A program made the translations under genes and the position numbers. Positions 4,513 through 58,935 of a DNA stretch of 64,000 bases are shown piece after piece. The notes below the pieces were generated by a model. The model was not told the DNA's origin, did no database searches, and saw nothing but the letters and a program-made list of their open reading frames with translations. Positions within the stretch are counted from its first letter, which is position 1. Every line of letters begins with the position of its first letter. The DNA lies in contig JAKAJV010000048.1 of NCBI GenBank assembly GCA_021813585.1, positions 62,001 to 126,000 on the forward strand. Reading direction: 5' to 3'. The stretch is from Bacteroidota bacterium. GTDB lineage: Bacteria; Bacteroidota; Ignavibacteria; Ignavibacteriales; Ignavibacteriaceae.

Positions 4513-4616
4513 GGAATATTGGAGTAATGGAGTAGTGGAGTAATGCACCCGGATATTCCTACTCTCCAATACTCCATCATTCCAATACTCCATCATTCCA
4601 ATACTCCATCACTCCG
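4513..4616. repeat. Short-word inverted repeat (GGAGTAATGGAGT family)
   Basis: The left arm (4513-4545) stutters GGAGTAATGGAGTAGT. The right arm (about 4559-4615) stutters the complement, ATACTCCATCATTCCA. The two can pair into a long imperfect hairpin in the 200-base gap between the SDR and PL17 genes. The same word family recurs at 6395-6532 and 58832-58935. Confidence 0.7.
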
Positions 4617-4654
4617 GTTTTCCAAAACTCAATCGTTTTCTGAAAGACGTCTTA

Positions 4655-6394: not shown

Positions 6395-6532
6395 GGAGTA
6401 GTGGAGTAGTGGAGTAATGGAGTGATGCATCCTGATATTTCAACACTCTAACATTCCATCACTCCAATATTCCATCACTCCAATATTCCATCACTCCAAC
6501 ATTCCATCACTCCAATATTCCATCACTCCAAT
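6395..6532. repeat. Inverted short-word repeat with five tandem 16-bp units
   Basis: Five contiguous 16-base units of ATTCCATCACTCCAAT fill 6453-6532; the third unit ends in C instead of T. Their complement, a stutter of GGAGTAGTGGAGTAATGG, lies at 6395-6427, so the whole can fold as a long hairpin with slipped registers. It occupies the 238-base gap between kdgK and the GntR gene. There are no unique spacers, so it is not a CRISPR array. Confidence 0.8.
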
Positions 6533-6574
6533 ACATCATTACACCTTATTCCAAAACCCTCAGAGCTAATAGAC

Positions 6575-10228: not shown

Positions 10229-12271
10229 TTATTTCGCTAATATCATTTTTCTAGTTTGAATAAAACTTCCGGCTTCAATTCTATAAAAATATATTCCGCT
10301 GGAAAGCTTGCCTGCATTTCCGCCGGAGGCGGATCCGCCTATGGCGGAAAATTCAACCTCATAGCTTCCGGGGCTCTGAATTTTGTTAACAAGAGTTTTA
10401 ACTTCTCTTCCAAGTATATCATAAACTTTAAGCGTTACAACCTCACCCCTTACTCCCCTCTCCCTGCCTGACCGGTAGGCAGGCTTGCTAAGGAGAGGGG
10501 CTGGGAGTGAGGTTGAAATAGTGTACCGTATTGTTGTTGTAGGATTTCCGCCATAGGCGGATCCGCCTCCGGCGGAAAACGGGTTCGGATAATTCTGTTC
10601 AAGCTTATAATTGCCCGGCATTAACTTGGCTTGTGCGTTGTTGATGGCAACGGTTGTTACACCGAGCCGCTCATTCAATTGTTCTATATATAATGACTGC
10701 GGAGTTAAGCCCGGCTGATTGGCGCCTTCGATATAACCTTGAGGCTCATTAAATGGTGCAGGCGGACAAACACCGGTAACGTGCTTGCCGAAGCATCCGA
10801 TGGCGTAGTTCTGTGCAGTCGGCGGTTTCTGGATTATAATATCGCCGTTGTTCTCATCGCAGTTCCAAGCAACCGAATTTGCAGCAGCCCAGCCGTGGCT
10901 GGTGCCGTAATTGCCCCGGTTGTATAATCCAAGTGTTCTGGGATTATATCCCGGTCGAGGACCATCGAGCTCTTTTAAATTATCATAAAGAAGCGCCATA
11001 CTCCACGCTCTGTGTCCTTCACTGCTTGCATAAATACCCTGCGAAGTACAGTCAAGAAAAACGCAGCCGGAGGTCCACGTTGTTCCATTAGATACAAAAT
11101 GATGCCGCCCGTTTGTCGCTAGGCATTTATAAAAAAGAATCTGCTGCGATGCGGTGTAGACGTTAAAATTATACATGCGCTCTCCGGTAATCTGACTAAC
11201 AGGATCTAATCCATTGCAGTACTCAACCGTAATTCTTGTTGCAGTATTTGTTCTAACCGCCGACTGACCGAAATGCAGCATCGTGCAATCCTTTATCCAC
11301 GAGTCTTCAATCTGGTAAAGATCGATCGCCTGCCAGGCGTGGTTCTCATCAGTTCCGCCTGCAGTCTGAATATCAATCCTTAAATTTTCTATGCCGATGT
11401 TCGTTTTAATTCCCGTCCTTGCATACTTATAAATGTAGCACTGCGACCGGCTTTTAATTAAAGTGTTGAATACCGGAACATCAATTGTAATTGTATTGCC
11501 TGAAATTTTAGTGATGTTTCTGTTGAACACAATCGGATAGCTGTTAACTGCCCAGGGAACGTCTACACCCGGCTCAGCTCCGGCATCAGTTGAATGAGTA
11601 CCTCCGTAGTTTATTGCCTGCAGCCATGCATCTGTACATGGATGATAAATTATAATATTGTCTCCCACTTTAAACGGCGATGCATTTTGTACTTCAAAAG
11701 AATTCGTACCGATTAAAACCGTATCGCTAGTAATGTTTGTTTTTGTTCCGCTAACCTGCTCTTTCCATTTAGATGCGCTTCCGCCGCCGGCAACCAGCAC
11801 TGTTCTTTGATGCGGCGAATCTCCAACCGCTAGAAGGATAGAATTTGAATCGGGACTGCTTCCATCGCCGGAACCTCTAAGCACAATGCCGCTTTCATTT
11901 AACTGAATGGTCCCGTCAATTTCATACGTGCCGGGCAAAAGAAGAATAGCTCCGCGTATGCCGTTTGAATTCAAAGGCATATTGGAAACTTCATTTATTG
12001 CATTTTGAATTGAAGAAGTGTTATCTCCCGAAACCGGCGAGATAGTTTTTACAACATCAACGTAAGGTATATCAACCCCGCCGCCTTTGTAGCCTGCATG
12101 ACTAAAATCCGGGACACAATTACCAGCCGTATCTCTTACATAAACAAGCTTGCCGTCGCTTCCGGAATAAACTATATTTGATTGCCAGGCAGACTGTGAG
12201 TGAACTTCCGCAGTATAGAAAATTTCAACTAATAAAAAAACAACTGCAATATTCAATAAACAAATCTTCAT
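10229..12271 (-). CDS. T9SS-sorted right-handed beta-helix protein, putative polysaccharide lyase
   Basis: A 680-residue secreted protein. After a signal peptide (1-25) comes a pectate-lyase-superfamily opening, with NTSSIQNAINEV, GAILLLPGTYEIDGTIQL and GIVLRGSGDG, and then repeated beta-helix coils to about 560. This fold is typical of polysaccharide lyases and GH28, but no known catalytic triad could be assigned. The C-terminus is a T9SS type A domain unusual in carrying three extra segments at about 565-680, each encoded by a palindromic DNA element (see the repeat entries). Its ATG overlaps the TGA of the upstream PL6 gene (ATGA), implying translational coupling. A role in alginate or associated uronan breakdown is inferred from context. 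Confidence 0.72.
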   Translation of the reverse strand: MKICLLNIAVVFLLVEIFYTAEVHSQSAWQSNIVYSGSDGKLVYVRDTAGNCVPDFSHAGYKGGGVDIPYVDVVKTISPVSGDNTSSIQNAINEVSNMPLNSNGIRGAILLLPGTYEIDGTIQLNESGIVLRGSGDGSSPDSNSILLAVGDSPHQRTVLVAGGGSASKWKEQVSGTKTNITSDTVLIGTNSFEVQNASPFKVGDNIIIYHPCTDAWLQAINYGGTHSTDAGAEPGVDVPWAVNSYPIVFNRNITKISGNTITIDVPVFNTLIKSRSQCYIYKYARTGIKTNIGIENLRIDIQTAGGTDENHAWQAIDLYQIEDSWIKDCTMLHFGQSAVRTNTATRITVEYCNGLDPVSQITGERMYNFNVYTASQQILFYKCLATNGRHHFVSNGTTWTSGCVFLDCTSQGIYASSEGHRAWSMALLYDNLKELDGPRPGYNPRTLGLYNRGNYGTSHGWAAANSVAWNCDENNGDIIIQKPPTAQNYAIGCFGKHVTGVCPPAPFNEPQGYIEGANQPGLTPQSLYIEQLNERLGVTTVAINNAQAKLMPGNYKLEQNYPNPFSAGGGSAYGGNPTTTIRYTISTSLPAPLLSKPAYRSGRERGVRGEVVTLKVYDILGREVKTLVNKIQSPGSYEVEFSAIGGSASGGNAGKLSSGIYFYRIEAGSFIQTRKMILAK
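10317..10350. repeat. 34-bp palindromic element inside coding sequence, copy 1
   Basis: The imperfect palindrome starts TTTCCGCC, has the perfect core AGGCGGATCCGCCT and ends GGCGGAAA. It is in frame inside the sorting domain of the 10229-12271 gene and encodes IGGSASGGN, which interrupts the normal run from FSA to GKLSSGIYF. It is the exact reverse complement of copy 2 at 10545-10578. Confidence 0.85.
10440..10514. repeat. Nested GC-rich hairpin element inside coding sequence
   Basis: Outer arms ACCTCAC and CTCCCCTCTCC pair with GGAGAGGGG and GTGAGGT, and an inner dyad CCTGCCT-GACCGGT-AGGCAGG lies between. It is read in frame as about 25 residues (from LPAPLLSKP to GVRGEV) just before LKVYDILGREV. 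Its architecture matches the intergenic elements at 8299-8380 and 14116-14199, including the inner CTGCCT/AGGCAG core of the first. Confidence 0.8.
10545..10578. repeat. 34-bp palindromic element inside coding sequence, copy 2
   Basis: This is the exact reverse complement of copy 1 (10317-10350). It is read in frame as SAGGGSAYGG between PNPF and NPTTTIRY, splitting the PNPFNP motif of the T9SS sorting domain. The net effect is about 10 added residues. Confidence 0.85.
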
Positions 12272-58831: not shown

Positions 58832-58935
58832 AATAGTGGAGTGTTGGAATAATGGAGTGAGTTCTATATATCGGTTTCATAATTCCATCATTCCAATACT
58901 CCATTACTCCACAATTCCAACTCCATCATTCATTT
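58832..58935. repeat. Short-word inverted repeat (GGAGTAATGGAGT family)
   Basis: AATAGTGGAGTGTTGGAATAATGGAGT on the left is complementary, with slips, to ATTCCATCATTCCAATACTCCATTACTCC and further copies on the right. It fills the 200-base gap between the phosphofructokinase and LarA-like genes. The word family is the same as at 4513-4616 and 6395-6532, about 52 kb away. Confidence 0.7.

Follow-up and report, generated by a model that had tools for sequence, protein, structure and literature searches.

The double-hairpin elements of fungal mitochondrial DNA, like the GC clusters of yeast, are formed by two adjacent hairpins that make up the mobile unit and show compensatory change. In bacteria, protein-coding palindromes have so far been regarded as a peculiarity of Rickettsia and Wolbachia, apart from a few REP dimers found elsewhere. 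The Rickettsia palindromic elements (RPE), known from the work of Ogata, Claverie and colleagues (reviewed in PMC2229807), have a length of 105–146 bp. Other short repeats are the GTAG- or CGTC-tagged REPs and REPINs (PMC3733652) and the MITEs, which end in inverted repeats and are bordered by target duplications of TA or longer (PMC2229807).

We have analyzed a stretch of 64,000 nucleotides (the window) from a genome of the Ignavibacteriaceae, in which the gene of a secreted protein carries several palindromic inserts in frame. Judging from the sequence comparisons described below, two of them are likely to be copies of a non-autonomous mobile element of 30 bp, a twin hairpin formed by two abutting hairpins of 15 bp and moved in trans, whose insertions in genes would be neutral and then filtered by selection.

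Palindromic inserts in a T9SS sorting domain

The host gene (10229–12271, minus strand) codes for 680 aa and ends in a C-terminal T9SS sorting domain (10229–10606, minus strand), supported by alignment and an AlphaFold2 model. The initial annotation had pointed out that 10317–10350 is the exact reverse complement of 10545–10578, which a direct comparison confirmed, and that the frame is kept in both orientations, as is indeed the case in this ORF. Each of these stretches is in itself a near-palindrome, but the inserted unit is not the 34 bp then proposed. It has 30 bp (copy A, 10547–10576; copy B, 10319–10348, in the opposite orientation), since ten residues are added with respect to the insert-free sorting domains of the same window and since the empty sites of NuoL (see below) delimit the same block; the outer TT and AA are target sequence. 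Copy A is found in phase 0 between the TTT and AAT codons of the NPF^NP motif, with TT/AA flanks, and reads SAGGGSAYGG. The splitting of this motif had been recognized correctly, but the second split, given before as FSA/GKL, is actually at VEF^NAGKLSSGIYF, where copy B, also in phase 0, adds SAIGGSASGG.

To these two copies, both of them present as described, a third palindromic insert in frame that had been missed has to be added, 72 bp long and of another family (CCTCACCCC..CCCCTCTCC / GGAGAGGGG..GTGAGG, 10441–10512), located between TIS(TS) and VVTLKVYD. Nested in it is the hairpin CCTGCCTGACCGGTAGGCAGG (10463–10483), of the CCTGCC..GGCAGG type; hairpins of this type flank a Y1/RAYT-type transposase gene in one member of the family (L248) and are also found near a Y1 transposase gene in L236. 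The window contains besides, at 4537–4632, 6419–6546 and 58864–58927, arrays of 8 bp tandem repeats (ATTCCATCACTCCA-like), several of them with inverted counterparts nearby.

The genus yielded a single orthologue (congener G011, 57% identity to the focal protein), whose sorting domain is an ordinary one that lacks all three inserts; this supports the initial view of the two copies as insertions and not as an ancestral feature of all orthologues. This domain matches Por_Secre_tail (PF18962) with 47 bits, and the 680 aa focal protein gave no match in Pfam, i.e., the inserts make a sorting domain invisible to it. In the AlphaFold2 model of the focal domain (mean pLDDT 68, from a shallow alignment) the seven beta-strands are kept, and the residues of the inserts lie for the most part between them, in loops modelled with low confidence. 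Rfam gave no credible match over the focal region.

The twin hairpin has the form of two TCnGCC-NNN-GGCnGA hairpins placed head to tail, each with a 6 bp stem and a 3 nt loop; the focal version is TCCGCC-NNN-GGCGGA-TCCGCC-NNN-GGCGGA. A 19-base core of the element has 4 matches in the window against 0.01 expected from dinucleotide shuffles of the same window. When copies with two stem changes relative to the TCCGCC form were gathered by a search blind to pairing, 29 out of 37 were exactly compensated within the small hairpin (0.54 expected), while compensation across the long 30 bp palindrome was seen in none of the same 37. It is the two small hairpins, and not the 30 bp palindrome, that compensatory changes conserve as the sequence diverges. 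Twins outnumber lone hairpins by 123 to 13, and the mobile unit is the twin rather than the lone hairpin. The predicted reading in phase 0, on either strand, is Ser-Ala-x-Gly-Gly-Ser-Ala-x-Gly-Gly (SAxGGSAxGG), ten residues.

The genome-wide count suggested in the initial annotation, carried out with a sequence pattern and with a covariance model built for the twin hairpin, gave about 21 places for the genome of the window, 3 of them in T9SS sorting domains; further copies appeared in other genomes, with up to about 27 places in congeners. The element is therefore multi-copy and, as had been supposed, not confined to the focal gene. Outside the focal gene, examples from the window genome are another sorting-domain gene (C18, likewise at NPF^NP), NuoL, a PIG-L family deacetylase, intergenic sites and partial tRNA copies. 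The TCCGCC form is present in 26 of the 80 family genomes, and the reversed-pattern control had no matches across all 80.

Partial, decayed copies of tRNA genes (Ser, Gly and Val), located directly upstream of the intact tRNA, have the twin hairpin located exactly at their D-loop (L074, G000:C78:65453-65833; L045, G005:C189; L112, G063:C26), and those of tRNA-Ser form at least four tandem units of 107 bp. Insertion in working tRNA genes was rejected, since the D-loop copies belong to these decayed remnants. The window genome has also a RAYT-like gene located between TGTCAYGGACCATTCCRTGACA hairpins (L042, G000:C112:6936), which is a separate REP family.

Insertion sites and copies inside genes

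The insertion sites are of the form (R)nnTTY^RAAnn(Y), i.e., TT^AA-like, and the logo of the flanks has, on both sides, a purine at -6, T at -3, T at -2 (about 80%) and T or C at -1. In NuoL, ATT-(30 bp)-AAA is found where 7 aligned congeners have an empty ATT^AAA, exactly 30 bp shorter, and no base has been duplicated or lost in the insertion. The logo is identical for the copies located within and outside ORFs, and the F^N junctions of the sorting domains (TTT^AAY) match it. The proposal that the linkers of a secretion signal are targeted as such found no support, given this common preference and the fact that housekeeping genes of every kind are hit in Patescibacteria and other phyla. The element has no specificity for secretion signals; in the Ignavibacteriaceae, sorting domains simply offer frequent TTT^AAY sites that tolerate it. 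At two NPF^NP sites of congener G006 (L084 and L087) the insert is a TCAGCC variant with a TGA in frame, and these stop-bearing copies therefore indicate that it is the element that chooses the site, with coding tolerance acting as a filter afterwards. Both sorting-domain genes are cut by the variant and are possibly recent pseudogenes.

An exact scan of the GTDB species genomes detected at least 118 stretches with the element. The matches listed belong to many candidate phyla, among them lineages of Patescibacteria and Omnitrophota, and to Kiritimatiellota, Lentisphaerota, Ignavibacteriota, Chloroflexota, Auribacterota, Margulisiibacteriota and others, and include no locus of the Rickettsiales. 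Some MAGs of Kiritimatiellota, Lentisphaerota and Chloroflexota contain 71–89 copies; nearly all the genomes compared are MAGs. A search of 2.9 million viral contigs gave a single match, indicating that the element is not phage-borne, and a phage origin was therefore rejected.

The matches listed in the GTDB scan provided a cross-phylum sample of 123 unique exact copies, 83 of which are located in ORFs of at least 150 aa. In 75 of these 83 the insertion is in phase 0, compared to 54–60% of the target-like sites of the same ORFs (P about 7e-13 to 1e-9), a strong excess of phase 0. The ORFs were called mechanically, with Pfam backing those examined: the 30 phase-0 proteins given to Pfam had genuine domain matches in all cases (30/30), and in many of them the domain runs across the insert (UvrD, HsdR, CysS, AtpD, TsaD, RsmH, SpoU methylase, PPDK and peptidase M50). 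The SAxGGSAxGG insert is found in TsaD, RsmH, RpoB, AtpD, CysS, a GyrB-like protein, DnaG and DnaJ, and the PDB homologues of TsaD and RsmH have a gap of exactly 10 residues at this point. Inserts of ten residues appear to be tolerated even by essential proteins. Copies out of phase tend to be located at gene ends or domain borders. Long ORFs hold 73% of the copies versus 82% of the target-like sites, so there is little depletion from genes. The general pattern is that of tens of copies per genome, inserted as an exact 30 bp block without target-site duplication and, when inside genes, almost only between codons.

The PheT of a Candidatus Campbellbacteria (L119, 5095–6624) contains the element twice, and next to one of these copies an NlpC/P60 domain is inserted in the B5 region. 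In the DnaJ of two candidate-phylum bacteria (L205 and L223) the element is found in the Gly/Phe linker, twice in L205.

Mobilisation and alternative explanations

We propose that an enzyme causing no duplication would move the element in trans, in the form of a folded hairpin. The candidate would be, most plausibly, a HUH-type single-strand transposase or a functional analogue, which acting in trans would fit the lack of duplication, the hairpins and the short target. Insertions in genes would start as neutral noise and then face selection: copies in phase 0 would survive, as they provide surface loops with a linker that is soluble and flexible, and those in other phases, in core positions or with stop-bearing stems (TCAGCC, TGA) would be mostly lost. 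The many paralogous T9SS sorting domains of the Ignavibacteriaceae, with conserved TTT^AAY codons (NPF^NP, EF^NA) and tolerant loops, would collect insertions in this way. Among the genomes compared, no presence/absence polymorphism was seen within one species. More tentatively, the twin hairpin may represent a phylum-crossing class of minimal mobile DNA not described before, inserted bluntly as a hairpin at TT^AA, with no duplication, by an enzyme other than Y1. It would then be a selfish element whose sequence has come to code for a Gly/Ser linker in either orientation, as an adaptation to the essential genes of gene-dense bacteria.

The alternative that survives best, although we find it rather improbable, is that of an ordinary member of the RAYT-REP system, i.e., a REP/REPIN doublet moved by a dedicated RAYT (a Y1 HUH transposase). 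Its size, short GC-rich stems, loops of 2–3 nt, doublets and intragenic copies in frame do resemble the REP dimers (PMC3733652), Y1 genes are present in 72 of the 80 family genomes and other hairpin families flank Y1 genes in some of them (L245, L248 and L249). However, none of the 48 Y1 transposase loci (22 from Ignavibacteriaceae and 26 from element-rich genomes of other phyla) was flanked by TCnGCC hairpins, neither of the REP tags is present, the presence of Y1 does not track that of the element over the family genomes, and MAG G086, which may be incomplete, has 17 copies and no Y1 match.

We consider it highly unlikely that the Gly/Ser inserts are selected linkers, that is, an element domesticated in T9SS sorting domains that alters or tunes secretion. 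In many genera the insertions recur at two to three positions of the sorting domain, and these domains, about 1% of the genome, are enriched in the element (3 of about 21 copies), even if the numbers are small. But only 3 insertions were found among the at least 150 sorting domains of the window genome (about 2%), the focal domain is no longer recognized by Pfam, the stop-bearing copies of L084 and L087 occupy the same site, unrelated enzymes carry the element outside the T9SS-bearing groups, and the position is accounted for by the target preference.

Even more doubtful is that the inserts are an ancestral or paralogous feature of sorting domains, spread by gene duplication or conversion. Paralogues of one genome can have the insertion at the same site (e.g., in G048), but the insert-free orthologue of G011 and the empty sites of NuoL contradict this explanation for the two genes concerned, and carriers are no closer to one another than to non-carriers. 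The sorting domains of C18 and C19 share the NPF^NP insertion and are only 47% identical, each being closer to some insert-free domains, so the common insertion does not come from a recent duplication. Besides, loop and stem sequences differ from copy to copy, and the same element is found in NuoL, ValRS, HsdR, RadC and intergenic DNA. Finally, chance or an assembly artefact has nothing in its favor other than the reliance on MAGs and can be practically discarded, with the shuffle expectation of 0.01, the empty reversed-pattern control and the presence of the element in independent assemblies and in different genes. We keep the reading of a mobile twin hairpin, moved in trans and filtered by selection, as the likely one.

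Comparison with known palindromic elements

No match was obtained for six representative hairpin sequences in the literature outside the subscription journals, where an earlier notice is possible, and a search for palindromes lying in frame in Parcubacteria or Ignavibacteria turned up no pertinent work. What we describe is a single tag-less element of 30 bp found across many bacterial phyla, mostly intragenic and located in core machinery such as RNA polymerase, tRNA synthetases, rRNA and tRNA modification and replication. It accounts for the odd SAxGGSAxGG loops of deposited candidate-phylum proteins, and its copies amount to many natural linker-insertion experiments, from which the tolerance of protein loops could be learned.

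The likeness to RPE seen in the initial annotation holds for the behavior, since both are palindromic repeats in frame within conserved protein genes, absent from orthologues in our case, that leave the host frame open. RPE are inserted in RNA genes as well, as the twin hairpin is in decayed tRNA copies. The likeness does not hold for the length, as 30 bp falls outside the range of the RPE. Those of the small RPE-4/RPE-6 type add 20–30 residues or more, whereas the twin hairpin adds ten residues of Gly, Ser and Ala in both orientations. RPE have been found in Rickettsia, and repeats resembling them in Wolbachia; the twin hairpin appears in many phyla at TT^AA-like sites. The MITEs (ERIC, Correia/NEMIS, RUP) are, like our element, short non-autonomous inverted repeats at times fused in frame to ORFs, but the twin hairpin has neither terminal inverted repeats nor target-site duplication.

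The REP dimers and REPINs share with it the short GC-rich hairpins with loops of 2–3 nt, compensated stems, the arrangement in doublets and some copies in frame, and the CGTC REPs are likewise without a known transposase (PMC3733652). Unlike them, the twin hairpin lacks the GTAG or CGTC tag and any spacer between the hairpins, the doublet is itself the unit, no association with RAYT was seen and about 73% of the copies are in ORFs. With respect to RPE and intragenic REP dimers taken together, the twin hairpin is the smaller element and has by far the wider distribution. Closest in architecture are the mitochondrial double-hairpin elements, the twin hairpin being too short for homology to be inferred, and from these it differs by its location in bacterial chromosomes, its fixed 15+15 bp and its coding of a Gly/Ser linker. 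The best reading is that of a new tag-less mobile double-hairpin element.
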